Source: Chromatiaceae bacterium (GTDB taxonomy: Bacteria; Pseudomonadota; Gammaproteobacteria; Chromatiales; Chromatiaceae). From it: a stretch of DNA of 61,884 nt. The stretch lies in the NCBI GenBank assembly GCA_013426805.1, contig JACDZG010000032.1:1-61884 (forward strand). The letters are read 5' to 3'. A program made the position numbers and the translations under genes. The notes beneath the pieces are model-generated. The model saw nothing but the letters and a program-made list of their open reading frames with translations, was not told where the DNA came from and did not search any database. Of the stretch, positions 547 through 47,583 are shown piece after piece. The first letter of the stretch is position 1; each line of letters opens with the position of its first letter.

Positions 547-3500
547 ATGGCAAAGGTCCCTCAAGACCCCGGGCCGGGGTCACTCGGCGACGACTGGACT
601 CTGTTGGCGAATGCCCTGACCGACCCGCTGGCGCAGCTCATCGCCGTCGAGGTCAAGGACCCCGCGTGCATGGACGCGTTGGAACTGCGCCTCGGCGAGC
701 TGGCCGGCGCGCGGCCCCTGGTCTGGGAAAGCGTCAGTCCCGGACGGGATTCGGCAGAGGCGCTCTGGCGGCAGGCTCGGGAGCGGGTCGGCGACGCGGG
801 CGACGCGGGCGCGGACGACCCCGTGTCCATTCCGCTCCTGGTGATCACCCTCGGGGCCTGGTCCGGGGACCGGGGCGAGCGCCAGCGCCTGGTCGAATTC
901 TGGCAGGGTATGAACCAATTGCGCGAGCACTGGCACGGCCTGCCCGCCCAGGTTGTCTTCCTGCTGAGCGGCATCGCCTATGAGCATCTGACGCTCAACG
1001 CGGATCACTTGAAGCGCTGGATCGCGCTCAAGGTGCACCCCGGGATCGCGCTTCCGAGCCTGGGTGACCTTATGCGCCCCGGCAGCATCCTAGGTCCCGT
1101 GGTCGCCACTGCAAACCAGGCCGACCAGATGATCGAGCAGGCCCGGCGGCGCGGGTACCTGGATCTGCTCATCCGCCAGGCCCGCGATGCAGAGCGCCGC
1201 GGGGAGGCTCCGCGCACACGGGCACGGCGCTATTACCTGCCGATCGCATCCGGCCTCCTGGCGCTCGGCGACCTTGAAGCGGCCGAGCACTGGCGCCGAC
1301 AAATCGCCGCTGCGCAGACGCTGGACCTGCACGATCGCACGGCGGTCGAGCGACTGGACGAACGGATGGCGGCCGAGCGCCGGCAGGTCCGCGGGGATGG
1401 CGCGAACCGGTTCGGCTTCGACTGCTTTCTCTCACACAACAGCCGCGACAAACCGGCGGTGCGGAACTTGGCACAGGCACTGAAAGCACGGGGCCTTCGT
1501 CCCTGGTTGGACGAGGAACAACTGGCGCCGGGTCTGCCCTGGCAGCCACTGCTGCAATCAGGGATACGCGCCTCCACGGCCGTGGCCGTATTGATCGGCG
1601 CGGATGGGCTCGGACCCTGGCAAGACGAGGAGTTGCGCGAGGCGCTGTCGCTCGCGGTGCGGGATAGCCGTCCGGTCATTCCGGTCCTGTTGCCCGACGC
1701 GCCGGCGGTGCCGGAACTGCCGCCCTTTCTCGCCGGCCGGACCTGGGTTGATCTGCGCCGGGATCAGGAGGCCGGTCTCGACCGGCTGGTGTGGGGCATC
1801 ACCGGGCGGCGGCCCGTTCGATCCAAGGACCAGGGCTCCCCGATCCGCCTGCTGCACCTCTCGGATCTGCACTTTCGGGCCAACCACGCCTGGGATGCGG
1901 ACCCGGTGCGGCGGTCGCTGGCGCGGTTCATCGGGGAGGAAGTCCGCGCCGGGCTGGTACCCGACCTGGTGGTGATCACCGGTGACCTCGCCTTCGCCGG
2001 CACGGCCGCGGAGTACGGGCTGGCCCGCGATTGGCTGGACCGGGTCCTGTGGCCCCTGCTGCACGACGCCGCGGGCACGGTGCTGCCCCGGGACCGTCTG
2101 CTTCTCGTCCCCGGCAACCACGACGCGGACCGCGCCCGGATCGGGCGGACCGCCCGGCATGTCCAGGACGGTCTGCTCGCCGAGTATTCTCAGGACGCGG
2201 TGGCTGAGATCCTTGGGGACGCGGATGAACGGGAGGGACTGCTGCGGCGACACCGCGACTGGCTCGCCTTCCACGCCGATTGGCTTGGCACGCCCCAGGC
2301 GCTGCCCTGGTGGCAACGCACGCTCACCCTTAAGGGCCAGCGCGTGCACTTGGCCGGACTCGACTCCGCCTGGATGTCCAGCGACGACCAGGATCGCGGG
2401 CGCCTCCTGCTCGGCCGCTACCAGATTCATCAGACCGTGCTGCACCCGGACGCCGACGCGGCGGACTGGCGCCTGGCCCTGCTGCACCACCCCTGGGATT
2501 ATTTGGCCGAGTGGGACATGCTGGAGTCCAGGCAGGCCGTCCACCTGCACCGGGACCTGGTGTTGCGCGGGCACCGGCACGCGAGCGATGCCGCTGACCT
2601 CCGGCCTCCGGACCCGGCCCGCGCCTGTGTGGAACTGGCCGCCGGCTGTGTCTACGACGGCAGCCGTCACCCCAATGCCTTTCAGTGGATCGAATTGTGG
2701 CCGAATCCCAAGCGCGTGCGGGTGCTGTTCCGCGCCTGGGTCAAGGGCGCTTGGTCCGTCGACCGCAACCAGCCCGGTTGTCCGGACGGGGAGGCGACCT
2801 TCGACCTCGCCGCGGCACCGTCCCGCCAGGGCACGGCGCCCCCGACCGCACCGCCGGCCGACCCCCGCAAGTACCTGGAAAACCTGTGGTCCGACACCGC
2901 CTACATCGACATCCGCGGCCTGGTCACCGGCGGCGCCAAGGCCCACCGCTTCCCCATCGCCGATCTCTACATCGAGCTTCAGGCGACCGGCACCACCACC
3001 CCCGCACGGGCCAAGGATGACGCCAGGTCGGACCGCACGGGCCAAGACCCCCGCCTGGACGCCCGCGCCGATCAGCCCCTGCGCGCCGCCCTGGTCAACC
3101 CACGGCTCGTCATCGTCGGTGACCCCGGCTGCGGCAAGACCACCTTCCTGCGCTGGGTCGCCCACTGCCTGGCCGCCGACCGGCTCGGCCGCGACCCCGG
3201 CGCCGCCGCCCGGCACCTGGGCTTGGACCCGGTTCCGGCCGGGGTCCGGCTCCCGCTGCTGGTCCCTATCGCCGACTGGCTCGACTACATGGCCCGCGCG
3301 ACCGCCAACGGCCACGGTCTCGACCTCGCCGTCTGCGCCGACTGGCTGCCGCAATACCTGGGCGCCCGCGCCGGACTCGCCAACCAGGGTCTGACCGCGG
3401 ACGCCTTCCACCGCCTGCTCGACGGCGGCGAGGCACTGATCCTGCTCGACGGACTCGACGAGGCCCCCGACCGGCTCCAACGCCAACAGGCCGCGGCCTT

Positions 3501-5391
3501 GATCGAATGCCTGGCCCTGGCCTACCCGGACTGCCCCCTGGTCGTCACCAGCCGCCCCGCCGCCCTGCGCGACAGCGCCGTCCTGACCGGCTTCGCCCAA
3601 ACCACCATCGAGGCCTTAGACCCCGCCGCCATCGACGGCTTTCTCGCCCGCTGGAGCCGCGCGCTCTTCGCGGACGATCCACCACGCGCCCGGGCGCATC
3701 ACGACGCGCTGGCCGCGGCACTGGCCTCGCGCCCCGAGATCCGCACCCTCGCCCGCAACACCGTCATGCTCACCGCGCTCGCGGTCGTGCACTGGAACGA
3801 CAAGCGGCTGCCCGAGCAGCGCGCCGAACTCTACGAGTCCATCATCCGGTGGCTGAGCGAGGCCCGCGAGCGGCGCCCTGGGCGGGAGAAGCCTCAACGC
3901 TGCCGCCAGCTCCTGGCCGATCTGGCGCTTGCCATGCAGGCCGATCCGCAGGGGCGTCAAGTCCAGGTCAGTCGGCGCTGGGCGGCCGAGCGCCTCGCGC
4001 GGCGCTTCGCCCCGGCCGACGACAGCGACCCCGAGGCGATCGAACGTGCCGACGCCTTCCTCGCCGAGGAGGAGATCGACAGCGGCATCATCGTGCGCCG
4101 CGGTCACCAACTGCGCTTCTGGCACCTGACCTTCCAGGAGTATCTGGCCGCTCAGGCACTCGGCGGGCGCGACGCCGAGCGCACCCGGCTGCTGCTGACC
4201 GCCGACGGGGATAGCGCTCCCGCCATCTACCGCCCGGAATGGCGGGAGACCGTCCTGCTGCTCGGCGGGGTGCTCTACCTGCAAGGGCAGGATCGGGTCG
4301 ACGGACTGGTGAGTTCCGTACTCGCCGCCCTGGGTGAGCACCCGACCCGCGCCGAACAGGCGCGCGCCGCCGGACTCCTGGGTGCCCTGGTGCGCGACCT
4401 CGCCCCCTTCGGCTACCGCCCGGCCGATCCGCGCTATGCGGAGATTCTCGACGCCGCCCTGGCCGTCTTCGACCCGGCCCAGGCCGGCGCCATCCCGCTC
4501 GCCGACCGCATCGCCGCCGCCGACGCCCTGGCCCAGGCCGGCGACCCGCGCCTGGGCTGGGCGCATCCCGAGCGCTGGGTCGAACTGCCGGGCGGGCGCT
4601 TGCTGATGGGCGCGCAGAAAAAGCGCAAGAAGGCCCCGGGCTACGACCCCGACGCAGACGACGACGAGGCCCCGGTCCATGAGGTCCCGATCGCCGGTTT
4701 CGGGATCGCCCGCTTCCCGGTGACCGTCGCCGAGTTCGCCGCGTTCCTGGAGGACGAGGGCCACGCCAGTCCCCACTGGTGGCAGGCCGGGGGTGCGGAT
4801 CAGCCCGCGGCTCCGGACGACTGGGAGGAGCAGCAGGCCCACCCCAGCCGGCCCGTCGTCGGGGTCTCCTGGTACCAGGCGATGGCCTTCTGCGCCTGGC
4901 TGACCGATCGGCTGCGGCGACCCCAAGGCGCCAAGGGCGCCATCCTGCTCCCCGCCGACCGCGAGGTCCGCCTGCCCACCGAGGCCGAGTGGGAATATGC
5001 CGCCCGCGGTGCGGCCGGCCGGCGCTATCCATGGGGCGACGCGGTGCCGGACGCGCAGCGCGCCAACTTCGCCGAGACCAAGGTCGGGAGCCCCAGTCCC
5101 GTGGGGGTCTTCCCGTGCGGCGCGACCCCCGAGGGTGTGCTGGACCTGGCCGGTAATGTGTGGGAGTGGTGCTTTGATGCCTACGCCGACTACGCCAAGC
5201 AGCAGGGCCAAGCGTCGTCGGCCGACCCTCCGGCTCAGGGCGACGACGGGTCGCCGCGCGTGGTGCGCGGCGGTGCCTTCGACCGCGTGGCCGGGGACCT
5301 GCGCTCGTCGAACCGGATCAGGATCGACCCCGAGTTCCGGTACAGGTTCTTCGGGTTCCGCTGCGTCCTGGCCGCGCGCCGCCAGCCTTGA
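547..5391 (+). CDS. STAND NTPase with TIR, metallophosphoesterase, NACHT and FGE-like C-type-lectin domains
   Basis: This is a 1614-residue multidomain conflict protein. Residues 1-285 resemble the N-terminal module of STAND proteins that lacks a P-loop. A TIR domain (about 288-430) starts FDCFLSHNSRD and has a candidate catalytic Glu in the PWQDEEL segment. A calcineurin-like metallophosphoesterase (about 433-760) has all its metal motifs: SDLHF, GDLAF, GNHD, LLHHPW and GHRH. The NACHT NTPase has Walker A GDPGCGKTT at 858-866 and Walker B LILLDGLDE at 964-972. The end (1344-1614) is an FGE-sulfatase/C-type-lectin domain with PTEAEWEYAARG, GNVWEW and a final GFRC. By analogy with Avs/NLR-like STAND systems, ligand binding at the C-terminus would oligomerise NACHT and switch on TIR and phosphoesterase activity; that mechanism is inferred. 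The C-terminus carries a putative DGR variable region. The start was chosen for its 13-bp spacing from the preceding gene; no strong ribosome-binding site is visible. Confidence 0.88.
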   Translation: MAKVPQDPGPGSLGDDWTLLANALTDPLAQLIAVEVKDPACMDALELRLGELAGARPLVWESVSPGRDSAEALWRQARERVGDAGDAGADDPVSIPLLVITLGAWSGDRGERQRLVEFWQGMNQLREHWHGLPAQVVFLLSGIAYEHLTLNADHLKRWIALKVHPGIALPSLGDLMRPGSILGPVVATANQADQMIEQARRRGYLDLLIRQARDAERRGEAPRTRARRYYLPIASGLLALGDLEAAEHWRRQIAAAQTLDLHDRTAVERLDERMAAERRQVRGDGANRFGFDCFLSHNSRDKPAVRNLAQALKARGLRPWLDEEQLAPGLPWQPLLQSGIRASTAVAVLIGADGLGPWQDEELREALSLAVRDSRPVIPVLLPDAPAVPELPPFLAGRTWVDLRRDQEAGLDRLVWGITGRRPVRSKDQGSPIRLLHLSDLHFRANHAWDADPVRRSLARFIGEEVRAGLVPDLVVITGDLAFAGTAAEYGLARDWLDRVLWPLLHDAAGTVLPRDRLLLVPGNHDADRARIGRTARHVQDGLLAEYSQDAVAEILGDADEREGLLRRHRDWLAFHADWLGTPQALPWWQRTLTLKGQRVHLAGLDSAWMSSDDQDRGRLLLGRYQIHQTVLHPDADAADWRLALLHHPWDYLAEWDMLESRQAVHLHRDLVLRGHRHASDAADLRPPDPARACVELAAGCVYDGSRHPNAFQWIELWPNPKRVRVLFRAWVKGAWSVDRNQPGCPDGEATFDLAAAPSRQGTAPPTAPPADPRKYLENLWSDTAYIDIRGLVTGGAKAHRFPIADLYIELQATGTTTPARAKDDARSDRTGQDPRLDARADQPLRAALVNPRLVIVGDPGCGKTTFLRWVAHCLAADRLGRDPGAAARHLGLDPVPAGVRLPLLVPIADWLDYMARATANGHGLDLAVCADWLPQYLGARAGLANQGLTADAFHRLLDGGEALILLDGLDEAPDRLQRQQAAALIECLALAYPDCPLVVTSRPAALRDSAVLTGFAQTTIEALDPAAIDGFLARWSRALFADDPPRARAHHDALAAALASRPEIRTLARNTVMLTALAVVHWNDKRLPEQRAELYESIIRWLSEARERRPGREKPQRCRQLLADLALAMQADPQGRQVQVSRRWAAERLARRFAPADDSDPEAIERADAFLAEEEIDSGIIVRRGHQLRFWHLTFQEYLAAQALGGRDAERTRLLLTADGDSAPAIYRPEWRETVLLLGGVLYLQGQDRVDGLVSSVLAALGEHPTRAEQARAAGLLGALVRDLAPFGYRPADPRYAEILDAALAVFDPAQAGAIPLADRIAAADALAQAGDPRLGWAHPERWVELPGGRLLMGAQKKRKKAPGYDPDADDDEAPVHEVPIAGFGIARFPVTVAEFAAFLEDEGHASPHWWQAGGADQPAAPDDWEEQQAHPSRPVVGVSWYQAMAFCAWLTDRLRRPQGAKGAILLPADREVRLPTEAEWEYAARGAAGRRYPWGDAVPDAQRANFAETKVGSPSPVGVFPCGATPEGVLDLAGNVWEWCFDAYADYAKQQGQASSADPPAQGDDGSPRVVRGGAFDRVAGDLRSSNRIRIDPEFRYRFFGFRCVLAARRQP
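5278..5352 (+). other. Putative DGR variable region (VR) of the TIR-NACHT-FGE gene
   Basis: This is codons 1578-1602 of the upstream STAND protein. Aligned without gaps to the equivalent stretch of the second STAND gene (6406-6480, minus strand), 20 of 75 nucleotides differ. Nineteen differences are at first or second codon positions and one is at a third position. Most variable codons are NNC (GAC, AAC, ATC, TTC, TAC), as expected if the template has AAC. The unchanged codons are adenine-poor or interspersed AGG/CGG. The 42 nt that follow (5353-5394) are identical in the two genes and would serve as the homing (IMH) side. The protein pattern LRS-x-x-R-x-R ... GFRC matches known DGR targets of the C-type-lectin fold. 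Confidence 0.72.
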
Positions 5392-5435
5392 CCCATTGAC
5401 CCATTGACCCATTGACCCATTGATCCTTTGACCCT
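5388..5435 (+). repeat. Six 8-bp tandem repeats (TTGACCCA type) overlapping the stop codon
   Basis: Four TTGACCCA units are followed by TTGATCCT and TTGACCCT. The first unit contains the TGA stop codon of the STAND gene. A related array of four units sits at the same place after the second STAND gene (6339-6370). The arrays abut the constant 3' side of the putative variable regions. Confidence 0.85.
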
Positions 5436-5448
5436 TTCTTCTCTTCCC

Positions 5449-5469
5449 ACGGACCGCGCAGCGGTCCGT
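5449..5469 (+). repeat. Hairpin downstream of the first variable region
   Basis: ACGGACCGC and GCGGTCCGT form a perfect 9-bp stem with a GCA loop, 58 bp after the STAND stop codon. The same stem core (GGACCGC/GCGGTCC) follows the second STAND gene at 6309-6325. In the Bordetella phage DGR an inverted repeat just downstream of the variable region promotes target recognition, so a role in retrohoming is possible; it could equally be a transcription terminator or a dispersed repeat. Confidence 0.6.
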
Positions 5470-5566
5470 TCGCGATTGACAACTTGCTCGTGGGTGCTTT
5501 CGACCCCCGCCCACGCGGCGAGCTGCTAGCATTGCAATCATCGCCAAACCACCGGGAACCGCAACC

Positions 5567-5803
5567 TTGGCCAATCTAGTGGTCCGCAATCTCGACCCGC
5601 GCATCGTCGATGCCCTCAAGCAACGCGCGTCCGCCCATGGCCGCAGCGCCGAGGCGGAGCATCGCCTGATCCTGGAGCAGACCCTGCTGCGGCCGCGGCG
5701 GCGGGGGTTCGCGGAGGTCCTGGCCGCCATGCCCGATGTGGGCCGCGACAGCGACTTTGCACGGGAGTCCGAGGATACCGAGACCGGCGATGTATTTGAT
5801 TGA
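5567..5803 (+). CDS. FitA-like ribbon-helix-helix antitoxin
   Basis: This 78-residue protein has an N-terminal ribbon-helix-helix DNA-binding fold: a beta strand in ANLVVRNLD, then helices through VDALKQRASAHGRSAEAEHRLIL. The strand and the GRSAEAEHR motif are typical of FitA antitoxins. It starts with TTG, preceded by GGGA eight bases upstream. The C-terminal tail should wrap the toxin. Its last 14 bp overlap the start of the PIN toxin gene, so the two are translationally coupled. By family it neutralises the toxin and represses its own promoter; TTGACA at 5476-5481 could be a -35 box, but no convincing -10 is seen. Confidence 0.85.
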   Translation: MANLVVRNLDPRIVDALKQRASAHGRSAEAEHRLILEQTLLRPRRRGFAEVLAAMPDVGRDSDFARESEDTETGDVFD

Positions 5804-6209
5804 CACCAATGTCATCAGCGAGGTCCGCAAGGGGGACCGGGCCAATCCGGGGGTGCGGCGGTTTTTCGCCCAGGCGGTGGCCTCTGGTTCGCGCCTCTAC
5901 CTGTCGGCTGTCACCATCGGCGAGCTGCGCCGGGGGGTCGAGTTGATCCGGCATCGCGGCGACCGGGTCCAGGCGGACCTGTTGGAGGCCTGGTTGGGGG
6001 AGGTCCAGGAGGACTACGCAGAGCACATCCTATGCCTTGATGCGGACGTGGCCCAGGTCTGGGGGCGGCTGCGGGTCCCACACCCCGAGAACGCCCTGGA
6101 CAAGCAGATCGCCGCTACAGCCCTGGTCCACGACCTGGACCTCGTCACCCGGAATACCCAGGATTTTCGCTGGACCGGGGTCCGGGTCATTGACCCGTTC
6201 TCGGATTAG
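5790..6209 (+). CDS. FitB/VapC-type PIN-domain ribonuclease toxin
   Basis: This 139-residue PIN domain starts MYLIDTNVISE, with acidic residues D5 and E11. It continues with AVTIGELRRG (a third acidic position) and LDKQIAATALVHDLDLVTRN, which supplies the C-terminal Asp cluster. The Mg-dependent active site therefore looks complete. Members cleave RNA, often tRNA or rRNA, when the antitoxin is lost. The ATG at 5790 was chosen because the PIN fold begins there and it overlaps the antitoxin gene by 14 bp; an upstream in-frame extension has no domain content. The pair lies between two convergent STAND genes, which fits a stabilising role in a mobile defence region. Confidence 0.88.
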   Translation: MYLIDTNVISEVRKGDRANPGVRRFFAQAVASGSRLYLSAVTIGELRRGVELIRHRGDRVQADLLEAWLGEVQEDYAEHILCLDADVAQVWGRLRVPHPENALDKQIAATALVHDLDLVTRNTQDFRWTGVRVIDPFSD

Positions 6210-6276
6210 CCCAAGTTCCGGTGCCAGTTGACGTGACAACGGTGTTTGACACTGTCATTGACACTGACAATCACAC

Positions 6277-6325
6277 TGACAAATTGTCAGTCAGTGTCAA
6301 ACGCGAACGGACCGCTACGCGGTCC
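6277..6325. repeat. 49-bp repeat, copy A, with CTGACAA-A-TTGTCAG palindrome and GGACCGC hairpin
   Basis: The block begins with a palindrome, (C)TGACAA-A-TTGTCA(G), and ends with GGACCGC-TAC-GCGGTCC (6309-6325). It matches 47 of 49 bases of 11401-11449. Just upstream, GTTTGACACT (6243-6252) pairs with AGTGTCAAAC (6292-6301). Read from the minus strand, the hairpin lies 42 bp after the stop of the second STAND gene, the same layout as at 5449-5469. Confidence 0.8.
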
Positions 6326-6338
6326 ATTGAAGAAAGAA

Positions 6339-6370
6339 AGGGTCAAAGGATCAAAGGATCAAAGGGTCAA
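6339..6370 (-). repeat. Four 8-bp tandem repeats overlapping the second STAND stop codon
   Basis: On the minus strand the units are TTGACCCT, TTGATCCT, TTGATCCT and TTGACCCT, the first containing the TGA stop. This is the counterpart of the six-unit array at 5388-5435. The differing copy number shows that the array changes length. Confidence 0.85.
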
Positions 6371-9300
6371 GGCTGGCGGCGCGCGGCCAGGACGCAGCGG
6401 AACCCGATGTTCCTGCCCCGGACCTCGGACCCGGCCCTGTACCGGTACATCGAGCGCAGGTACCTGGCCTCGCGGACGAAGGCACCGCCGCGCAGCACGC
6501 GCGGCGACCCGCCTTCCTGCTGGTCCTCAGAATAGAAGTCGTCGCACCACTCCCAGCAGTTGCCCGCCATGTCTTCCAGGCCAAGCGGTACCTGCGCCGA
6601 ACGGGGGAAGAGCCCGACCGGGGAGGTGACCCCGAGACCCGCCTCGTGGCTGTTGCAGATGCCGTCCTCCCACGGGCCGCACCAGGGGTACTCGTAACCC
6701 TGCGGGCCGCGGGCGGCAGCCTCCCACTCCTGCTCCCTGGGCAGTCGTCCCCCGGCCCAGCCGCAGCAAGCTTGCGCCTCCCAGAAGGAGACGCCGATCA
6801 CTGGCTGATTGGGGGCATTCCAGCGCCGTTCCTGCCAAGCAGACGGTTCGGTGACGCCCGTCTGTTGCAGCCAAGCCCAACCCGCGTCGGACCACCACTC
6901 CTGGTTGGTATAACCGGCGTCGTCCATGAAGGCGCGGTACTGGCTGTTGGTCACCAGGTAACGCGCGAGCAGGAAGGGGACCTCGATCCGGAGCGTCGCG
7001 TTCTGCTTGCCGTAGACATAGGTACCGGCCGCGACTTCGACATAAGCCGCGCGGTCGCGCAGGCTGCGGATGCGCGGGTCGCCGAGCAGGCCCAGGCAGA
7101 GCCCCAGGGTCTGGCGCGCCTTGACCTCGACCGCGTCGGCGATGGCATCCAGACAGGTCCGGCGGAACCCGCCGGCCAAACCTGGGGGAATCGCGTACTC
7201 CTTGGCCAGGCACAGCTCCAGGGCCTCGGCCACGAAGACGGCCGGGGCCGGGTTGTCCTTGGTCTGGGCACGGTCGAGCCCGGCGGCGAGCCGGGTCAAC
7301 AGGTCCAGGCCCCACTGGGCGTTGCGCAAGCCGAAGACCCGCGCGGCGAACAGAAACAGGAGCGTCGGGCGCCACTCCGGGACGGTCCAGCGGTTGCGGA
7401 AGACCAACTCCAGGGCGGCGCGATCCGCGGTGCAACTGATCCGCTCGGCGGCCAGGAACTCCTGGAAGCTCAGGTGATAGAACGCGGCGCGACCATTGGG
7501 CCGGGGCAGCAGCAGGCCGGAGTGGGTCAGCAGCTCCTCGCGCTGGACGGCGGGTTCGACCCGACCTTGCTCGTAGGCAGGATTGAGTTGGGCGAAGCAG
7601 CGCAACAGCCGCTCCAGTTCCAGGTCGCCGGTCTCGGCGTTCGGGGTTTGGCGGTCCTCGTCCAGCCCTTCGCCGGTGTGCATGCCATGGGCGATGGCTT
7701 CCAGCCGGGCCTTGACCGGCTCGCGTTGGCGCGCATCGCCGGGGTAGCGGTTGTAGAGCACGTTGTCGACGATCTTCTGGTAGAGATGGTAGCGGTCCTC
7801 GGGCAGCCGCCGGCCGTTGCCGTAGATGACGCACAGTGCCGTCAGCAGCAGGGGGTTCTCGGCGAGCGGGGCCAGGTCGTCGCGGTCGTGGATGGTCGCG
7901 ATCAGGCCGGCGGCCAGCGCGGACTTGTCGAGGGTGTGGAACCAGCGGGTGACGAACAAGTCCTGCAAGGGCTCGGGCAGGGGCTCCAGGGGAGCCTGCG
8001 GCAGCCCGAGTTTGGACAGCCCGGACGCGTCGAGTCCATAGGGGCGGCTGGTGAGCAGGGTGCGGTTGCCGGCCCGCTCCCAGTGCGGCAAGGCGTCGGC
8101 GAGACCGGCGAGTAACAGGGCACGGGGGTAGCGGGTGATCCCGTCGTGGGACTGGGAGACCGGGACCTCGTCCAGTCCGTCGAGCAGCAGGAAGGCGGTG
8201 CCGGCCGCGAGGTGCGCTTGGAGTAGGTCGCCGGTGAGTCCATCCGGGCGCAGTCGGCCGTCCACCCAGGCGGCCAGGGTTCGCGTCAGCTCGTCGCGGC
8301 ACCAGGTGCGGCGGCCGTGGCCGCAGTCCATGGCCTCCCAAAATTCGCGCAGCGGCACCAGGAGCGGCAGCCGGGCGCGCAGGTGGGCGGGTGTCGGCTC
8401 CTGGAATCCGTCCGGGGCCGGCACCGGGTGGGCGGCCGGGGTGCCGGAGCTGCCTTGCAGGACCGCCCAGCGGCAGAAGGTGGACTTGCCGGCCCCGGGC
8501 GGAGCCGGGCAATAGAGCGATGACGCGTCGAGGCGTTGCAGCAGCAGGGTCGGCGGTGGTTGCTCGGCATCCGCGGGTCGCGCCGTCGGCGTGGGCGGTG
8601 TTGCGGGGACCGTGACCGCCGGGCAATAGACCTGGCTCAGGGTCACCGACTGGCCCTGCTGGGCGTCCTGGCCGAGCAGGTCGACGCCGCCGTAGGTACG
8701 GCGCAGCCAGGCGAGGTAGTCGGCGGGGATGGCCGGTGCCGCAGGCTCGGCCTGAAGCGCGGCCGGCTCCGCGGGGCGCGGAAGCGGGAACTCCACGACG
8801 CCCTGATCATCGCCGCCGGGCTGATTGCGATCCCGTTGCCACTTGCCCTTGACCCAGAGCCGGAAGTGCACCCGCACCCGCCGGGGCGCCGGGTAGAGTT
8901 CGATCCACTGGAAGGCGTTGGGGTAATCACTGCCGTCGTAGATACAGCCGGCGGCTAACTCCAGGCAGGTGCGGTCAGGATCGGGTGAGATCACATGAAA
9001 CGCCTCACCCTCGTGCAGATGACCGCGCAGCAACAGGTCCCGATGGAGATGCAGCGCCTCCTTGGCCGTGCGGGCGTCGAATTCGGCCAGGTAGTCCCAG
9101 GGGTGGTGCAGCAGGGCGAGACGCCAGTCGGCGCCCTCTCCGTCCGGGTGCAGAACGGCCTGGTGGACCTGGTAGCGGCCGAGCAGCAGGCGCCCGCGGT
9201 CGGTGTCGCCGCAGGCCATCCAGGCGGAATCCAGTCCGGCAATATGCAGGCGTTGGCCGTCGATCGTGATGCAGCGTTGCCACCAGGGCAGGGGGTGCGC

Positions 9301-9750
9301 GGCGCCGAACCAGCGTCCGCAAAAGTCCAGGTAGGCCGCGTGTCGCTTGAGAACGAGGTCGCGCTCGTCGTCGTGTTGCAGAAGTTCAGCGATGGCGTCT
9401 TGCGAGCCCTCGGCCAATTGGCCGTCTTGGATTTGCCGCGCGCCTTTACCGACCCGGCCCCGATCCGCATCATGGTTGCCGGGCACGAGCAGCAGACGGT
9501 CCCGAGACAACACCGGGGAGAAGGCGGGCCACAGTTGCTGCTCCAGCCAATCCAGCGCCAAGGCGTATTCCTCCGCCTTACCGGAAAAGGCCAGGTCACC
9601 GGTGATCGCCACCAGGTCAGGTTGAAGCCCGCGCCTAACCTCATCGCCGATAAACCGCGCAAAGGCGCGCAAGACCGGGTCCGAGTCCCATGACTTGCCG
9701 GTGCGGAAATGGATGTCGGACAGATGCAGGAGGCGAATCGGTTGATCCAT
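6367..9750 (-). CDS. STAND NTPase with metallophosphoesterase, NACHT and FGE-like C-type-lectin domains
   Basis: This 1127-residue protein is related to the TIR-bearing STAND protein at 547-5391 but lacks the TIR and N-terminal modules. It opens with a calcineurin-like phosphoesterase: LLHLSDIHF, ITGDLAFSG, GNHDADR, LLHHPWDYL and RGHLHEG are all intact. The NACHT core follows, with Walker A PPGAGKST near residue 420 and Walker B LLLDGLDE near 523. The C-terminal FGE/C-type-lectin domain begins near residue 902 and ends GFRC VLAARRQP, identical to the other protein. The ATG at 9750 was chosen because the phosphoesterase fold starts three residues later; ATG 9774 is an alternative and neither has a strong ribosome-binding site. 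It converges on the other STAND gene with a toxin-antitoxin pair between. The likely role is a ligand-triggered abortive defence sensor (inferred). Confidence 0.85.
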   Translation of the reverse strand: MDQPIRLLHLSDIHFRTGKSWDSDPVLRAFARFIGDEVRRGLQPDLVAITGDLAFSGKAEEYALALDWLEQQLWPAFSPVLSRDRLLLVPGNHDADRGRVGKGARQIQDGQLAEGSQDAIAELLQHDDERDLVLKRHAAYLDFCGRWFGAAHPLPWWQRCITIDGQRLHIAGLDSAWMACGDTDRGRLLLGRYQVHQAVLHPDGEGADWRLALLHHPWDYLAEFDARTAKEALHLHRDLLLRGHLHEGEAFHVISPDPDRTCLELAAGCIYDGSDYPNAFQWIELYPAPRRVRVHFRLWVKGKWQRDRNQPGGDDQGVVEFPLPRPAEPAALQAEPAAPAIPADYLAWLRRTYGGVDLLGQDAQQGQSVTLSQVYCPAVTVPATPPTPTARPADAEQPPPTLLLQRLDASSLYCPAPPGAGKSTFCRWAVLQGSSGTPAAHPVPAPDGFQEPTPAHLRARLPLLVPLREFWEAMDCGHGRRTWCRDELTRTLAAWVDGRLRPDGLTGDLLQAHLAAGTAFLLLDGLDEVPVSQSHDGITRYPRALLLAGLADALPHWERAGNRTLLTSRPYGLDASGLSKLGLPQAPLEPLPEPLQDLFVTRWFHTLDKSALAAGLIATIHDRDDLAPLAENPLLLTALCVIYGNGRRLPEDRYHLYQKIVDNVLYNRYPGDARQREPVKARLEAIAHGMHTGEGLDEDRQTPNAETGDLELERLLRCFAQLNPAYEQGRVEPAVQREELLTHSGLLLPRPNGRAAFYHLSFQEFLAAERISCTADRAALELVFRNRWTVPEWRPTLLFLFAARVFGLRNAQWGLDLLTRLAAGLDRAQTKDNPAPAVFVAEALELCLAKEYAIPPGLAGGFRRTCLDAIADAVEVKARQTLGLCLGLLGDPRIRSLRDRAAYVEVAAGTYVYGKQNATLRIEVPFLLARYLVTNSQYRAFMDDAGYTNQEWWSDAGWAWLQQTGVTEPSAWQERRWNAPNQPVIGVSFWEAQACCGWAGGRLPREQEWEAAARGPQGYEYPWCGPWEDGICNSHEAGLGVTSPVGLFPRSAQVPLGLEDMAGNCWEWCDDFYSEDQQEGGSPRVLRGGAFVREARYLRSMYRYRAGSEVRGRNIGFRCVLAARRQP
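6406..6480 (-). other. Putative DGR variable region (VR) of the second STAND gene
   Basis: On the minus strand this 75-nt stretch encodes the segment from the F of GGAF to the residue before GFRC. It aligns without gaps to 5278-5352, with 20 differences, 19 of them at codon positions 1 or 2. Paired codons include GTC/GAC, TAC/GAC, ATG/TCG, TAC/AAC, TAC/ATC, GCC/ATC, GGC/TAC and AAC/TTC, all derivable from a template A at the changed bases. The next 42 nt (6405 down to 6364) are identical in both genes. Confidence 0.72.
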
Positions 9751-9930
9751 GGCGGTACCCGAGGTCCAGTGCATTAACAGCCTGGCGATGTTGCACGAAG
9801 CGTAACCGCTGGTCCAGATCCCCGGCAATGGCCGCGGCGCGGTGGCGGCCGTCCATGCGCGCGAGTGGGAGAACCCGACCAACACGGATGCCGCGGCGTG
9901 TGCATGGCCGGAACGTCACCGGCGACGCCA

Positions 9931-10132
9931 GCAATTCCAAATTTGGGTGGCCGCCGCCAACAGCGTGTCGGCAGCGAGGCCGATGGTGGATGCGCTGCGC
10001 TTATCCACCCTACGAAACCGGCTCCGTTGTAGGGTGGATAAGGCGCGCCGCTCGGTGTCGGGGACCCGGCACGGCGGTCGCGCGCGCCGCATCCACCAGA
10101 GGTCGCGCGGTGCCGCCCAAATTTGGAATTGC
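9931..10132. mobile_element. 202-bp palindromic MITE-like element
   Basis: The ends are 17-bp perfect inverted repeats, GCAATTCCAAATTTGGG at 9931-9947 and its complement at 10116-10132. Nested inside are CTTATCCACCCTAC (10000-10013) and GTAGGGTGGATAAG (10029-10042), a motif often seen in proteobacterial intergenic repeats. There is no internal gene. It lies in the divergent spacer between the second STAND gene and the Uma2 gene, so it may carry or disturb their promoters. Confidence 0.6.
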
Positions 10133-10217
10133 TGCCGACGACGCCCGCCGGTGCCGATCCCGCCCGCTTCGTGCTAGGCTTGAATCCTGCAATTCCAAGA
10201 CCGGACGCCTGCCGCCC

Positions 10218-11309
10218 ATGTCTCCCAGCGCTGCCACTGAACTCGCACCCGCGCCGCAGGTCCCGGCCCCGCCGCCCCGACGCCTGCCCGCGGCGGGTTC
10301 CGCGGACGGTCTCCTGGTCTCGGAGGCGGTTTACTGGACCACCTATTACCTGGAGTCGGACCACCATTACGAGTGGAACAACGGCCGCCTGGAGGAGAAA
10401 CCGGTGTCCGATTACGAGACCTTTCTGGTCTATGCCTGGTTCAGCGAACTGGTGCGGCACTTCCTGCGCACCCACCCCTGCGCGCAACTGGTCGGCTTGG
10501 AGATGGGTTTCCGATTGCCGCTGCCGAGCGGCACCGTCATCCGCAAGCCCGATTTCGGCGTGGTGCGCAACGACAATCCCCAGCCGCTGCTGCCCTTGGA
10601 TTGCTCCTACCACGGGGTGTTCGACCTCTGTATCGAGGCCCTGTCCGACCGGGAGCGCAGCGGCATCGAGCGGGATACCGTCATCAAGAAGGCCGAATAC
10701 GCCGCCGGGGGCGTACCCGAGTATTACATCCTGCACCAGAACCCCGCCCACCAGGCGTTCTACACCCGCACCCCCACCGGGTTCTATACGCCCATCGCAC
10801 CACAGGCCGGGGTCATCTGCTCGCGGGTGCTGCCGGGGCTGCAATTCCGCCCGACCGACCTGGCGCGCCGACCGGAGCTGGAGGCGTTGCGCGACGATCC
10901 GGTTTATGCCGGCTTCGTCCTCCCCGGCTGGCGCGCGGATCGGGAGCGCGCTGAGGCGGCGGCGCGGCAAGCCGATGCCGAGGCGCAGCGGGCCGACGCC
11001 GAGATGCGGCGGGCCGATGCCGAGGCGCAGGCCAAACGCGAGGCCGAGGACCGCGCCAACGCCGAGGCGCGGCGGGCTGACGCCGAGGCCCAGGCCAAAC
11101 GCGAGGCCGTGGACCGGGCCGCTACCGAGGCGCAGCGGGCCGATGCCGAGGCGCAGGCCAAACGCGAGGCCGTGAACCGGGCCGACGCCGAAGCGCAGCG
11201 GGCGGTCGAGCAGACCCGGCGGGCCGACGCCGAGGCTCAGGCCCGGCAGCGCCTGGAGCACGACCTGGCGGCCCTACGGGCACGCCTCGCGCAGGGTGGG
11301 CTGCGGTGA
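10218..11309 (+). CDS. Uma2 family (DUF820) putative PD-(D/E)xK endonuclease with coiled-coil tail
   Basis: This is a 363-residue protein. Residues about 35-235 are a Uma2 domain: YYLESDHHYEWNNGRLEEKP, then VIRKPDFGVV as the PD part, and later FDLCIEALSD and DTVIKKAEYAAGGVPEYYIL as the E-x-K region and substrate-binding part. From about residue 250 to the end it is a charged coiled coil built on repeats of RADAEAQAKREA. Uma2 proteins are abundant in cyanobacteria and purple sulfur bacteria and are often near mobile DNA; the cellular role is unknown. The ATG at 10218 was chosen because the in-frame extension upstream crosses a palindromic element and has no domain content. The Ala/Glu/Arg repeats are close copies and may vary in number. 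Confidence 0.82.
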   Translation: MSPSAATELAPAPQVPAPPPRRLPAAGSADGLLVSEAVYWTTYYLESDHHYEWNNGRLEEKPVSDYETFLVYAWFSELVRHFLRTHPCAQLVGLEMGFRLPLPSGTVIRKPDFGVVRNDNPQPLLPLDCSYHGVFDLCIEALSDRERSGIERDTVIKKAEYAAGGVPEYYILHQNPAHQAFYTRTPTGFYTPIAPQAGVICSRVLPGLQFRPTDLARRPELEALRDDPVYAGFVLPGWRADRERAEAAARQADAEAQRADAEMRRADAEAQAKREAEDRANAEARRADAEAQAKREAVDRAATEAQRADAEAQAKREAVNRADAEAQRAVEQTRRADAEAQARQRLEHDLAALRARLAQGGLR

Positions 11310-11362
11310 GGAACGAACCGCAGCACCGACCGTGCGACCGGCGATGCGGTTCGTTCCTCACC
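11305..11362 (+). terminator. Inverted repeat at the end of the Uma2 gene, possible terminator
   Basis: An 18-bp arm at 11305-11322, which includes the TGA stop of the Uma2 gene, pairs perfectly with 11345-11362. The loop is 22 nt. There is no T-run after it, so it may be a repeat element rather than an intrinsic terminator. Confidence 0.4.
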
Positions 11363-11400
11363 GCATCCTACGGGCTACGGGCTGACCGTCTCATTGACAT

Positions 11401-11449
11401 TGACAAATTGTCAGTCAGTGTCAAGCGCGAACGGACCGCTGCGCGGTCC
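11401..11449. repeat. 49-bp repeat, copy B
   Basis: This copy matches 6277-6325 at 47 of 49 bases, including the TGACAA-A-TTGTCA palindrome and the GGACCGC-TGC-GCGGTCC hairpin (11433-11449). Unlike the copies near the STAND genes, no variable region adjoins it. That argues that the element is a dispersed repeat, or that a target was lost here. Confidence 0.8.
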
Positions 11450-11486
11450 GCTTTGGTAAAGCAAGAACGTCGCTTCTCCTTTTCGC

Positions 11487-11590
11487 TCGCTCCCACGCTC
11501 CAGCGTGGGCGTGTCGTGCGGGCGCTCCGCGTCCGGTCTGCGCACTGGACGCGGAGCGCCCGCACCTGCTCCCACGCCGGAGCGTGTGAG
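11487..11590. repeat. REP-like element, copy 1
   Basis: Its core is a 19-bp perfect stem, 11516-11534 with 11547-11565, flanked by CTCCCACGC boxes. A related copy with the same GCGGGCGCTCCGCGTCC arm is at 18628-18673. Between 11310 and 11630 nothing but these repeats is seen. Confidence 0.75.
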
Positions 11591-11630
11591 CCAGAGTCGG
11601 CCAGAGTGGCCGGAGTAAGGATCGAAACCC

Positions 11631-14600
11631 ATGTCCGACCCCCACGCCTCGCAGGTTCGCATCAGTCTGGCCGGCAGCCCAGGGCTGACGGTCGGTTGCG
11701 GACTCCTGGTCACCCCGCGTCATGTCGTCACCTGCGCCCATGTGGTGGCGGAGGCGCTGGCTGATCCAGCGCTCGCCCTGGCGTCCGCGGCGCCGGCCGG
11801 TGCCGTGCCGCTGGATCTGCCGCTGCTGGCGGTACCCTTCCGGACCAGCGGCCGGGTGGTCTGCTGGCACCCGGCGCGGGACGACGGCACCAAGGTCCCC
11901 GAGGACATCGCCGTGTTGGAATTGGCCGATGAGGCGCCGGCCGCGGCCGCACCGGCCGCGCTCCTGGCGCTCGACCCGGAGGATTACACCCAGCGTCCCG
12001 TGCACTGCTTCGGTTTCCCCGCCGCGATCGACGAAGGTGTTCACCGCCCCGGCACCTGTCGCGGCGAAAACACCCTGGGACGGGTCCAGCTCGATGTCGA
12101 ACGGGGGCTGGTGCAGGGCGGTTTCAGCGGTACCGCCGCCTGGGACCCGACGCAGGGCGCTGTTGTCGGTCTGGTGGTGGCCGCGCGTACCGAGGACCAA
12201 TCCGCCCAGCTCATCCCGGTGCGCACGCTCTTTGCCGCCTGTCCGGAACTGGAGCGCGAGTGGCGCCCGCGCAACCCCTACAAAGGCTTGTCCGCCTTCG
12301 AGCCGGTGGATCGGGCCGACTTCTTCGGGCGCACCGACCTGATCCGGCAACTCGCCGACCGCGTGGAGCGTGAGCGTCTCGTTACCCTCATCGGTCCCTC
12401 CGGCGGCGGTAAGTCGTCGCTGATCGGGGCCGGACTGTTGCCCGTGCTCGCTGACCGGGGCGGCTGGCGGTTCATTCGTATCCGCCCCGGTGTCGATCCG
12501 TTCGATGCCCTGGCCGGGGCGCTGCTCGCGCCCGGTCTCACCCCCGGCCAACGGGTCGAGGAGCGGCGCCGCCTGAACGCCCTGTTGATCGAGGACCCGG
12601 CCGGTTTCATGGCGGTGCTGCGCGAGTGGTCGGCGGACGCCCCCGGTACGCGTCTGCTGCTCGTCGTCGATCAGTTCGAGGAACTCTTCACCAATGTCCA
12701 GACCGGCGACCCGGCGCGCGCCCGCGCCTTTGCCGTCGCACTCGGCGGGCTGGCCGCCGTCGACCCCGCGGCTGGGGTGTCGGTGCGTCTGCTGCTCGCC
12801 CTGCGGGCGGATTTCATGGGCCGCGCGATGGACGGACCCACGGCTCCCTTCATCGCCCCGGAGCGCCAGTGTCAGGTCGGTCCCCTGGACACGGATGATC
12901 TCAAGGCCGCCATCCTGGGGCCGGCGGCGGCCTGCGGCGTGCGCTTCGGCCCCGGTCTGGTCGACGCCATGGTCGCCGATCTGGAGGATCAGCCCGGTCG
13001 GCTGCCGCTGCTCCAGTTCGCGCTCTTCCAACTCTGGGACCAGCAGCAGGCCCGCTGCATCGACGCCGTGGCACTGGAGCGTCTGGGCGGGGTGCGGCGC
13101 GCGCTCTCGGCGTACGCGGATGGTGTCATTGATGCGTTGAGCGAGGCGGACCGCACCCGCGCCCGCCGCATCCTGATCCAACTGGTGCGCCCGGCCGAGC
13201 GCGCCGCGGATGTCGGCACCCGGCAGGTCGCCAGCCTCCGGCGGATCGCCGATCAGGATCAGGATTTGCTGCCGCGGCTCGTGGCGAGCCGGCTGGTCGT
13301 CACCTCCGGCGGCGCCGACGACGAACCCCTGGCCGAGATTGCGCACGAGGCGCTGATTCGCGAGTGGGACCGCCTGCGGACCTGGGTCGGCGAGGACCGC
13401 GTCTTCCGACTCTGGCAGGAAGGGTTGCGCAGCCGACTCGCCGACTGGGAGACGCACGGCCGGCACCCCGGCTATCTGCTCGCCGGTGCCCCGCTCGCCG
13501 AGGCCGAGGGTCGGCTGGCGGTCTACCCGGAAGGGCTGAGCCAGGCGGATGGCGGCTATATCCGCGAGAGCCGCGCGCACGCGGAGCGCGGCCGTCGGCG
13601 CGGGCGGGCGGCGGTCGCCGCAGTCATCCTCGGTCTCGCCGCCGTCGCGGGCGTTGCCGGGTGGCAATGGCAACGGGCCGCGGCCGAGGCGCGGCGCGCC
13701 GAGACGGCCCTCAGTTCCGCTGAGGGTCTGGTCAACTTCATGACCTTCGATCTGCGCGAGAAGCTCCAACCCATCGGTCGGCTGGAGCTTCTGCGCGATA
13801 CCCAAGCGCGCATCGACAAGTACTATGCGCAGCAGGGGGCGCCGAGCGGTGACCCTGTTGCGATACGACGGCGTGCCGCGAATCGTCTCCATTCCGGTGA
13901 GTTGGCAAGCGCGCTCGGCGACCTGTCGGGTGCCGCGCGGCTTTATATCGACGCAGCGGAGGTCTTCAAAGGACTGGCGGAGAGCGACCCGAGCAACGCC
14001 GGCTGGCAGCGCGATCGGTCGGTGAGCCTGAACAAGATCGGCGACCTCAAGACCGTGCAGGGCGACCTGGCGGGGGCGCTGGCGGCTTATAGCGAGAGCC
14101 AAGCGATCCGCGAGCGCCTGGCCGGGAGCGACCCGAGTAACGCCGGCTGGCAGCGCGATCTGGCGGCGAGCCTGAGCAGGATCGGCGACCTCAAGACCGC
14201 GCAGGGCGACCTGGCGGGGGCGCTGGCGGCTTATACCGAGAGCCAGGCGATCCGCGAGCGCCTGGCCGGGAGCGACCCGAGCAACGCCGGCTGGCAGCGC
14301 GATCGGTCGGTGAGCCTGAACAAGATCGGCGACCTCAAGACCGCGCAGGGCGACCTGGCGGGGGCGCTGGCGGCTTATACCGAGAGCCAGGCGATCCGCG
14401 AGCGCCTGGCCGGGAGCGACCCGAGCAACGCCGGCTGGCAGCGCGATCGGTCGGTGAGCCTGAACAAGATCGGCGACCTCAAGACCGCGCAGGGCGACCT
14501 GGCGGGGGCGCTGGCGGCTTATACCGAGAGCCAGGCGATCCGCGAGCGCCTGGCCGGGAGCGACCCGAGCAACGCCGGCTGGCAGCGCGATCGGTCGGTG

Positions 14601-15068
14601 AGCCTGAACAAGATCGGCGACCTCAAGACCGCGCAGGGCGACCTGGCGGGGGCGCTGGCGGCTTATACCGAGAGCCAGGCGATCCGCGAGCGCCTGGCCG
14701 GGAGCGACCCGAGCAACGCCGGCTGGCAGCGCGATCGGTCGGTGAGCCTGAACAAGATCGGCGACCTCAAGACCGCGCAGGGCGACCTGGCGGGGGCGCT
14801 GGCGGCTTATACGGAGGATCTGGCGATTGCCGAGCGTCTGGCCGGGAGCGACCCGAGCAACGCAGAGTGGCAGCGCGATGTCGTCGCCTCGCTCTGGAAG
14901 CTGAGCGGTCCAGGACTTGCCGCACCGGATGTGGCCCGGGACTATCTGCTGCGTGGGCTGAAGATTCTGGAGGGGTTGGAAGAGGCGGGGAAGCTGCCCG
15001 GCAGTCAGGGTGACTGGCCGGGGTTGCTGCGGGAACGGCTGCGGACCCTTGGCGATGGGGCTAAATGA
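11631..15068 (+). CDS. Trypsin-like protease-STAND (nSTAND1) protein with transmembrane segment and tandem repeats
   Basis: This is a 1145-residue protein. The N-terminal serine protease domain has a complete triad: H37 in TCAHVV, D92 in EDIAVLEL and S166 in GFSGTAAW. A STAND ATPase follows, with Walker A GPSGGGKS at 255-262 and Walker B LLLVVDQFEEL around D347. A hydrophobic helix near 659-680 should anchor it in the membrane. The C-terminal third (785 onward) is six 48-residue TPR-like repeats starting SDPSNAGWQRD, plus a degenerate seventh. By analogy with protease-STAND defence proteins, the repeats would sense a ligand, the ATPase would oligomerise, and the protease would cleave a target; this is inferred. 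The ATG at 11631 begins just before the protease fold. Between this gene and prpC there is only repeat DNA. Confidence 0.85.
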   Translation: MSDPHASQVRISLAGSPGLTVGCGLLVTPRHVVTCAHVVAEALADPALALASAAPAGAVPLDLPLLAVPFRTSGRVVCWHPARDDGTKVPEDIAVLELADEAPAAAAPAALLALDPEDYTQRPVHCFGFPAAIDEGVHRPGTCRGENTLGRVQLDVERGLVQGGFSGTAAWDPTQGAVVGLVVAARTEDQSAQLIPVRTLFAACPELEREWRPRNPYKGLSAFEPVDRADFFGRTDLIRQLADRVERERLVTLIGPSGGGKSSLIGAGLLPVLADRGGWRFIRIRPGVDPFDALAGALLAPGLTPGQRVEERRRLNALLIEDPAGFMAVLREWSADAPGTRLLLVVDQFEELFTNVQTGDPARARAFAVALGGLAAVDPAAGVSVRLLLALRADFMGRAMDGPTAPFIAPERQCQVGPLDTDDLKAAILGPAAACGVRFGPGLVDAMVADLEDQPGRLPLLQFALFQLWDQQQARCIDAVALERLGGVRRALSAYADGVIDALSEADRTRARRILIQLVRPAERAADVGTRQVASLRRIADQDQDLLPRLVASRLVVTSGGADDEPLAEIAHEALIREWDRLRTWVGEDRVFRLWQEGLRSRLADWETHGRHPGYLLAGAPLAEAEGRLAVYPEGLSQADGGYIRESRAHAERGRRRGRAAVAAVILGLAAVAGVAGWQWQRAAAEARRAETALSSAEGLVNFMTFDLREKLQPIGRLELLRDTQARIDKYYAQQGAPSGDPVAIRRRAANRLHSGELASALGDLSGAARLYIDAAEVFKGLAESDPSNAGWQRDRSVSLNKIGDLKTVQGDLAGALAAYSESQAIRERLAGSDPSNAGWQRDLAASLSRIGDLKTAQGDLAGALAAYTESQAIRERLAGSDPSNAGWQRDRSVSLNKIGDLKTAQGDLAGALAAYTESQAIRERLAGSDPSNAGWQRDRSVSLNKIGDLKTAQGDLAGALAAYTESQAIRERLAGSDPSNAGWQRDRSVSLNKIGDLKTAQGDLAGALAAYTESQAIRERLAGSDPSNAGWQRDRSVSLNKIGDLKTAQGDLAGALAAYTEDLAIAERLAGSDPSNAEWQRDVVASLWKLSGPGLAAPDVARDYLLRGLKILEGLEEAGKLPGSQGDWPGLLRERLRTLGDGAK
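13983..14846 (+). repeat. Six tandem 144-bp coding repeats
   Basis: Units begin at 13983, 14127, 14271, 14415, 14559 and 14703. A degenerate seventh starts at 14847. Units 3-5 look identical at the DNA level; units 1, 2 and 6 differ at a few codons (for example RSVSLNK versus LAASLSR). The period of 48 codons keeps the frame, so copy number can change by recombination without breaking the protein. Confidence 0.92.
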
Positions 15069-40853: not shown

Positions 40854-41462
40854 TCAGTGGTTCTCGTTGCCTTCTTGCCACAGATGACAACCCAGATGCA
40901 CGATCCGCAATTCGGCGCCGCTGCTGTGCTGGTGTCGGGTTACAAAGGCCCCGGACAGGAGCGGATGGTCCTCGGCGGGTCCGAGCGCCGGGGGGACCGC
41001 CTCCGGTCCAAGCTGCTCGCGTAGGCGGTTGAGCAGCACGACCATACCCTTATGCCGGATGAAAAAGGCAAGACACAGGACCCGTCCCTCGCGGCCGGTC
41101 GCGTAGCCCAGAAGCTGAGTCATCCCCTCCCGGTGCCAGGCCGGGCCATCCCAGATCTTGCATTCGGTGAGGTGTTTGAACTCCAGGCACCGTGGGTGCG
41201 AAATCGTCACGTCCACATGCCCGTTCTGACGAGTTTCCGGTGTGGCCGGCACCAGTTCGCCCAGTAGGTCCGTGATGAATTGACTCAGGTCGATCTCGCC
41301 GAGCTTGCGGTAGGTGCTACGGCTCGACTCCATGCGCTGGACCACACGCGCGATCAGGCGCTCGGCGGCGTCGAGAAAGGCCTCCCGGGAGTCGCTGACG
41401 TACAGTGCCTCCGCATAGGGGTTAATGGAGCGGATGTGCCGCAACCAGTCGTCCGCGCTCAT
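40854..41462 (-). CDS. Putative PD-(D/E)xK nuclease-like protein of the restriction island
   Basis: This 202-residue protein has no confident family. The centre reads GHVDVTISHPRCLEFKHLTECKIWDG, then a Gln in GMTQLLGYATGREG. A strand-borne Asp, an E-x-K in TECK and a following Gln are the signature of PD-(D/E)xK nucleases. Its ATG overlaps the stop of the restriction (Res) gene by ATGA, so it is the third gene of the mod-res operon and is translationally coupled. It may be an accessory nuclease or specificity factor. The function is inferred from the motif and context. Confidence 0.55.
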   Translation of the reverse strand: MSADDWLRHIRSINPYAEALYVSDSREAFLDAAERLIARVVQRMESSRSTYRKLGEIDLSQFITDLLGELVPATPETRQNGHVDVTISHPRCLEFKHLTECKIWDGPAWHREGMTQLLGYATGREGRVLCLAFFIRHKGMVVLLNRLREQLGPEAVPPALGPAEDHPLLSGAFVTRHQHSSGAELRIVHLGCHLWQEGNENH

Positions 41463-47406: not shown

Positions 47407-47583
47407 GACGGTCCCGTTGGATGCGATGGTGCGAGCGCGGCATGTTAACCGACGCCATCGCCGTGGTGGGGCGGTGTTCGGTCCGGTGACGAAGATCCGG
47501 CGTCGTGAGAATCTTGTGCCACAACCTGCACCCCAAGCGGCTGGTGTGCGATGACCCGTTTGTCACGATTGCCGGCGTCGGGA

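Follow-up and report, generated by a model that had tools for sequence, protein, structure and literature searches.

How can two sensor genes end in hypervariable, lectin-like domains when nothing that could diversify them lies nearby? This question is raised by a stretch of 61,884 nucleotides (hereafter the window) that makes up contig JACDZG010000032.1 (C227) of the Chromatiaceae assembly GCA_013426805.1 (7.6 Mb in 349 contigs, here G000), and in which two convergent genes for STAND-type sensors terminate in repeats of the kind written by diversity-generating retroelements (DGRs). It is near certain that these are genuine DGR variable repeats (VR1 and VR2) in FGE/C-type-lectin C-termini, and the locus is probably one whose mutagenic core, intact at the corresponding place in a sister species, has been lost.

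VR1 lies at 5248-5388 on the forward strand, at the end of the first sensor gene (the a-target, 547-5391, forward strand), and VR2 at 6370-6510 on the reverse strand, at the end of the second (the b-target, 6367-9885, reverse strand). When 5248-5394 (forward) and 6510-6364 (reverse) are aligned without gaps, 21 of the 147 nt differ. The stretch 5278-5352 contains 20 of these differences, 19 of which affect codon positions 1-2, and the twenty-first is at 5263; the 42 nt from 5353 to 5394 are the same in both stretches. This agrees with the initial annotation, which had reported 20 differences in 75 nt (19 at codon positions 1-2) before 42 identical nt and had considered ordinary divergence an insufficient explanation. 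Between the a- and b-targets, none of the 25 fourfold degenerate sites within the repeats differs, whereas 99 of 236 do in the final 3000 nt that were compared ahead of the repeat, and in the FGE domain just upstream only 70 of 180 aligned columns (38.9%) are identical. Since low fourfold divergence in the repeats is thus combined with strong divergence outside the patch, neither chance nor ordinary drift can account for the pattern.

Repeats similar to those of the window were found in at least 12 of the 112 relatives searched. The best match among the candidates scored (40 of 93 and 40 of 61 at first look; for the relatives, at most 7 or at most 40 per genome) is locus L076 on NZ_CAIZIZ010000480.1, which belongs to a metagenome-assembled genome of an uncultured Lamprocystis sp. 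(G006). The template-search query carried A at the mismatch sites, which biases it towards A-rich places; the unaltered window repeats match the same place of L076 at 86-87%. Here, an a-target (3505-7194, forward strand) and a convergent b-target (9718-13194, reverse strand) enclose a core consisting, in this order, of a gene for a helix-turn-helix (HTH) protein (7327-7881), bAvd (7878-8216; 41.1 bits to PF22296, cut-off 40, and 46.4 bits to NF033474, below its cut-off of 80), a template repeat (8276-8416) and a reverse transcriptase (RT) gene (8580-9575). Each of the two repeats of L076 differs from the template beside it at 19 sites, of which 19 and 18, respectively, are at template A. The window sensors occur in the same order and orientation as those of L076, with 76% identity over 1211 columns for the a-targets and 64% over 1160 columns for the b-targets; the b-targets closest to that of the window are found on contig C1 of Lamprocystis purpurea DSM 4197 (G002; 89% over 560 columns) and contig C503 of G005 (75%).

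Compared with the L076 template, VR1 shows 20 differences, 16 of them at template A, and VR2 shows 19, of which 15 are at template A. Of the 21 positions at which VR1 and VR2 differ from each other, 17 are occupied by A in this sister template, which is situated beside bAvd and an RT and in which A accounts for 28 of 141 bases (hypergeometric P 2.5e-11, in a test that treats sites as independent). When codon positions were kept, none of 200000 random draws reached 17 template-A sites, and 24 of 200000 did so when the draws were confined to the variable stretch. The attribution of the two C-termini to DGR mutagenesis of C-type-lectin (FGE) domains, already made in the initial annotation, is well supported by these values. 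Moreover, VR1 and the L. purpurea C1 repeat differ at 12 A sites and at none of the 113 other sites, and therefore indicate a single template haplotype; between the b-targets of these loci, 28 of 266 fourfold sites are different.

Both ordinary divergence and gene conversion are rejected on the template-A pattern, the contrast at fourfold sites and the random draws. A more elaborate proposal, in which gene conversion between the 3' ends is followed by diversifying selection on binding residues, without any reverse transcriptase, would accommodate both the dominance of codon positions 1-2 and the identical flanks, which are as expected after conversion. However, the differences follow the A of a template that stands beside bAvd and an RT in another species, even with codon position and stretch controlled, the comparison of VR1 with the L. 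purpurea repeat shows changes at A sites only, and a DGR-type hairpin stands behind both window repeats, so that we regard this proposal as extremely improbable.

The hairpin on the a side (5449-5470, forward strand) has a 9-bp stem and a GCA loop, and the one on the b side (6306-6327, reverse strand) has a GTA loop on its sense side; folded as DNA, the two reach z-scores of -2.68 and -2.20 against shuffled sequences. The palindrome ACGGACCGC-NNN-GCGGTCCGT, with at most one mismatch, occurs at 16 places in G000, G002, G006 and G007, 15 of which are just 3' of a repeat of the window's family (the sixteenth is at window 11430-11452). A perfect stem of at least 7 bp is present 23-60 nt behind 15 of 22 family repeats in G000, G002, G005, G006 and G007, with the sense-side loops GCA (8), GTA (4), GGA (2) and GAA (1). 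Of the remaining seven repeats, two (G006_a and G007_C3a) have a hairpin with a single mismatch in its stem, and five lack the hairpin, which was also absent from five further sequences checked (two G004 matches, the L076 template and two repeats on contig C311 of G000). Note that our tabulation of the family holds 19 repeats and omits those of C62 (G000), G002 C184a and G007 C3a, which are gapped or shorter matches, as well as two G004 matches, two in L164 (G007), those of L167 (G035) and weaker ones.

At window 11397-11452, the b-side linker occurs once more together with its hairpin (94% identical to 6273-6325 over 53 nt), and it is this hairpin that forms the sixteenth palindrome. No variable repeat adjoins this isolated copy, which is perhaps the remnant of another target. 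Behind it, at about 11480-11600 as judged by eye, lies a palindromic repeat resembling a miniature inverted-repeat transposable element (MITE) and similar to one on C198 of the same genome. A further candidate repeat end, C65:14298-14329, was rejected: the match spans 32 nt and lies opposite to the coding strand of a permease gene.

What, then, occupies the place of the core in the window? Downstream of the a-target, a linker is retained at 5412-5483 (forward strand), and homology to the intact locus stops near 5483, just past the hairpin. The linker that would have separated the lost RT from the b-target is retained at 6233-6366 (forward strand), with the RT stop codon at 6234-6236; homology of this side to L076, L154, L155 and L156 (all three in L. 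purpurea) and L159 (G006) starts at window 6233, which corresponds to the last RT coding base in those loci. The vacated slot contains genes for a FitA-like ribbon-helix-helix antitoxin (5567-5803, forward strand) and a PIN-domain, VapC/FitB-like toxin (5793-6209, forward strand). Searching window 5389-6370 by tblastn with the sister RT, HTH protein and bAvd returned chance-level matches only (E 4 or worse), and of the 12 RVT_1 matches in G000 not one falls on C227; thus the earlier statement that no retroelement lies nearby still stands. We consider it quite likely, judging from these homology borders, that the window is an L076-type locus whose core has been deleted in this genome, the FitA-like/PIN pair now being in its place. 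We infer that this lineage originally had the intact form and that nothing of relevance is absent from the assembly.

The course of events might have been as follows. Ancestrally, the two convergent sensor genes would have enclosed a core made up of an HTH gene, bAvd, a template repeat and an RT gene. The template RNA would have been copied with errors at A, and the resulting cDNA would have replaced the last ~140 nt of the FGE/C-type-lectin domain of each sensor, with the GNA-loop hairpin downstream marking the target; such rewriting would alter the presumed ligand-binding face of the sensors. Later on, the core would have been lost from the a-side hairpin to the RT stop codon, and the toxin-antitoxin pair would have come to occupy the slot. 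At present, nothing found in the assembled genome appears able to rewrite the repeats, which would accordingly be frozen and are still open reading frames.

Several observations weigh against this reconstruction. No RT, HTH or bAvd coding remnant is kept in the window, and linker homology to a sixth locus, L160 (in Ca. Thiodictyon syntrophicum, G007), sets in 20 nt later than it does for L076, L154, L155, L156 and L159. At 5263, 5309, 5328 and 5329, four of the 21 positions at which VR1 and VR2 differ, the L076 template has no A; these differences require either a template of the locus's own that carried other bases at these sites, or point mutations. Furthermore, in an assembly of 349 contigs a template or RT may have remained unassembled, and the last rewriting was recent, given that all 25 fourfold sites agree between VR1 and VR2, so the machine may survive in other cells.

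The two last points are also the strength of the explanation that the repeats are still being diversified by an intact cognate DGR missing from the assembly, be it on an unassembled contig or in core-bearing cells of the population. There is a precedent for the latter, because single aggregates of Thiohalocapsa hold intact and degraded variants of one locus, according to PMC10907252. However, RT and HTH searches of G000 revealed no core piece nearer than that of C311, the place that the core takes in L076 is assembled in the window and occupied by the toxin-antitoxin pair, and G007, assembled in three contigs, retains repeats of the same family with no template found. On balance, we hold such continuing diversification to be unlikely.

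The initial annotation had instead supposed that the pair is served in trans. The whole-genome search it had proposed, for a DGR RT and a template, was successful in its first half, with six DGR-like RTs, and found no fitting template in the 349-contig assembly. These six of the 12 RVT_1 matches, on C198, C259, C347, C152, C311 and C139, resemble DGR RTs by eye in having an SQ motif where other RTs have SP. Repeat pairs are found near each of them, and their differences are mostly at sites where one copy has A (or T, where the opposite strand was read), namely 18/18 on C198, 17/21 on C259, 15/16 and 18/19 on C347, 11/12 and 13/14 on C152, 9/9 on C311, and 7/9 and 14/15 on C139. In 11 of 12 comparisons the templates of G000 itself show 16-30 non-A mismatches to the window repeats, against 4 for the sister template; the twelfth (C152 template with VR2) was set aside as aligned over 28 nt only, with 3 non-A mismatches. 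A pattern scan that left template-A sites free and allowed up to 3 mismatches, its fixed sites being taken from the sister template and the window repeats, detected only the two window repeats in G000; a more diverged template would escape it. Altogether, an RT, accessory protein and template fitting the window repeats, as united in L076, were found neither in the window nor elsewhere in G000.

Could C311, for instance, nevertheless rewrite the window repeats? Six DGR-like RTs are at hand, the C311 locus is arranged alike, with two convergent FGE targets enclosing HTH, bAvd, template and RT, and the RT and HTH protein of G000 nearest to those of L076 are both on C311 (54% and 49% identity). 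Activity in trans has also been inferred in Thiohalocapsa (PMC10907252) for repeats matching a remote template at all non-A sites. Yet the C311 template has 27 and 30 non-A mismatches to VR1 and VR2, the other templates have 16-30 apart from the single 28-nt alignment, and the C311 repeats lack the hairpin of the window's family. Trans service by one of the six was consequently rejected for its excess of non-A mismatches, and we give it very little credence; loss of the core is better supported, because homology resumes exactly at the RT stop codon. Two other loci of this genome should be mentioned in their own right: C311 (L016, 8142-15266) is an intact DGR with two convergent FGE targets around an HTH gene, a bAvd-like gene, template and RT, and C198 (L023, 6610-8934) carries a DGR target that fuses a caspase-family peptidase (Peptidase_C14) to a diversified FGE domain.

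Is the window an isolated case within its genus? The same pattern scan located three repeats and one template in G006, and repeats alone in G002 (four), G005 (three) and G007 (four); G001, G003 and G004 gave nothing. Judged by their A count (at most 16 of 28), none of the places in G000, G002, G005 and G007 is a template. Pieces of RT are found beside repeats in L154, L155, L156, L159 and L160, and pieces of HTH in L162 (G007) and L084 (G005). The only full-length RT in G000-G007 more than 54% identical to that of L076 is in G006, namely the L076 RT itself. These remnants show, as far as sequence comparison goes, that the core has been lost repeatedly in the genus. Since the L. purpurea locus compared with the window through the C1 repeat keeps RT residues 1-125 and 296-331, which are gone from the window, the two losses look independent, or at least to have run differently. 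G007 consists of three contigs (the queried C3 stretch is 100% identical to NZ_CP020372.1), for which reason an assembly gap is hardly the cause of its missing template. We tentatively suggest that in Thiodictyon/Lamprocystis the DGR may be a transient mutator that makes sensor variants and is then repeatedly and independently deleted, the frozen variants persisting as a fixed repertoire of immune sensors; the window would hold a pair fixed in this way, its slot taken by a toxin-antitoxin module.

As a separate observation, the L155 repeat (9274-9414) equals the L076 template (8276-8416) at all 113 non-A sites and differs from it at 20 A sites, and the target genes near the two differ at 75 of 183 fourfold sites; this template may have been shared between species by transfer.

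By Pfam, the a-target (1614 aa) is composed of TIR, calcineurin-like phosphoesterase, NACHT and FGE-sulfatase/C-type-lectin domains, and the b-target (1172 aa) of a calcineurin-like phosphoesterase and an FGE-sulfatase/C-type-lectin domain, PF03781 (FGE) scoring 184.5 and 142.3 bits; between the two domains of the b-target lies a P-loop region. The pairing of TIR-phosphoesterase-NACHT and phosphoesterase-NACHT sensors claimed earlier is therefore confirmed for the a-target, whereas Pfam at E 0.01 did not find NACHT in the b-target. Accordingly, the a-target is, by domain content, a protein with a central NACHT, an N-terminal effector and a diversified lectin domain, as in the DGR-diversified STAND/NACHT sensors of multicellular bacteria, and the NTPase of the b-target rests on its 40% identity to the a-target (1232 columns) and on a P-loop-like GAGKST recognized by eye. 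By analogy, the sensors probably detect phages or other invaders and act through their TIR and phosphoesterase domains. A third sensor of the family, with TIR, phosphoesterase and FGE domains, is encoded at 5343-10973 of L018 on C62 of G000; it has a diverged repeat of the same family (79% identical to VR1) and a GAA-loop hairpin, and a core was looked for beside the gene and not found. Further along the window, a gene next to the sensor locus (11631-15068) encodes a protein that combines a trypsin-like peptidase, nSTAND1 and TPR units, the last in near-identical tandem copies, and 41459-51335 contains restriction-modification-like genes for a ResIII-domain protein, an N6/N4 DNA methylase and a type IIG-like protein.

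Among known systems, the lectin domain of the a-target resembles in sequence the FGE/C-type-lectin domain of Treponema denticola variable protein 1, a DGR variable protein of solved structure (PDB 2y3c; E 7.6e-19, residues 139-273 of the 280-aa query); 2y3c is one of 32 distinct matching PDB sequences, and other FGE-fold proteins match equally or better. Unlike in 2y3c, the domain of the window forms the C-terminal end of a large NTPase sensor. In both sensors, the phosphoesterase region matches the anti-phage proteins DS8 and DS9 (NCBIfam NF053861 and NF053862) and PADLOC PDC-S60; the matches cover this part only, and their scores are far under the whole-protein cut-offs (96-100 against 790 bits, and 44 against 420 bits). 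The one paper found on DGRs together with Lamprocystis (PMC7159879) names this genus for VMAP ternary systems. The literature, as partly covered here, yielded no paper on a DGR in Thiodictyon and no description of the window locus under orphan, degenerate or remote repeats, PMC8144416 included.

What is known of the BPP-1 DGR from Guo et al. (2011, PMC3240598) is that GC-rich stems of 7-10 bp with GRNA loops, 4-34 bp from the repeat, are required for homing. The window family shares with BPP-1 the template-A-directed differences and a GC-rich hairpin shortly 3' of the repeat, with a sense loop of the form G...A. It differs in its loop of 3 nt (GNA) instead of 4 nt (GRNA), in a distance of 23-60 nt instead of 4-34 bp, and in that the core of the window is lost. 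By this analogy, we take the hairpin to be the same kind of element as that of BPP-1, with the loop one base shorter.

The locus offers a natural experiment on whether DGR-diversified sensors are useful only during hypermutation or whether fixed variants are valuable too, as related sensor pairs occur both alongside the machine, in L076, and in its absence, in the window, L. purpurea and Ca. Thiodictyon syntrophicum. Sites other than template A provide a clock for the end of rewriting, while the sister template tells which residues could vary; variable repeats can thus be recognized through relatives even without a template in the same assembly.

The initial annotation thought the arrangement new, and for the most part it is not. 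In Doré et al. (2024, PMC10907252), nine DGR loci are described in Thiohalocapsa PB-PSB1, including NACHT/STAND targets with diversified lectin domains and degenerate loci; the repeats of its DGR 7 match nothing else in the reference genome, and intact variants exist in the population. NACHT/lectin and TIR plus phosphodiesterase targets, as well as two-target and degenerate loci, are thus known there from this and related bacteria. The window is most like DGR 3, 6 and 7, which likewise belong to a purple sulfur bacterium and have paired STAND/NACHT targets with a C-terminal diversified lectin domain; TIR and phosphodiesterase domains in targets and degenerate loci without RT or template are further points in common. 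It differs in its genus, in a slot that holds a toxin-antitoxin pair where Thiohalocapsa has MITE-like arrays, in having its intact counterpart in a sister species, and in that diversification within a population was shown for Thiohalocapsa only. The kind of locus is therefore already known from Thiohalocapsa, and the window is a well-documented new case of it.

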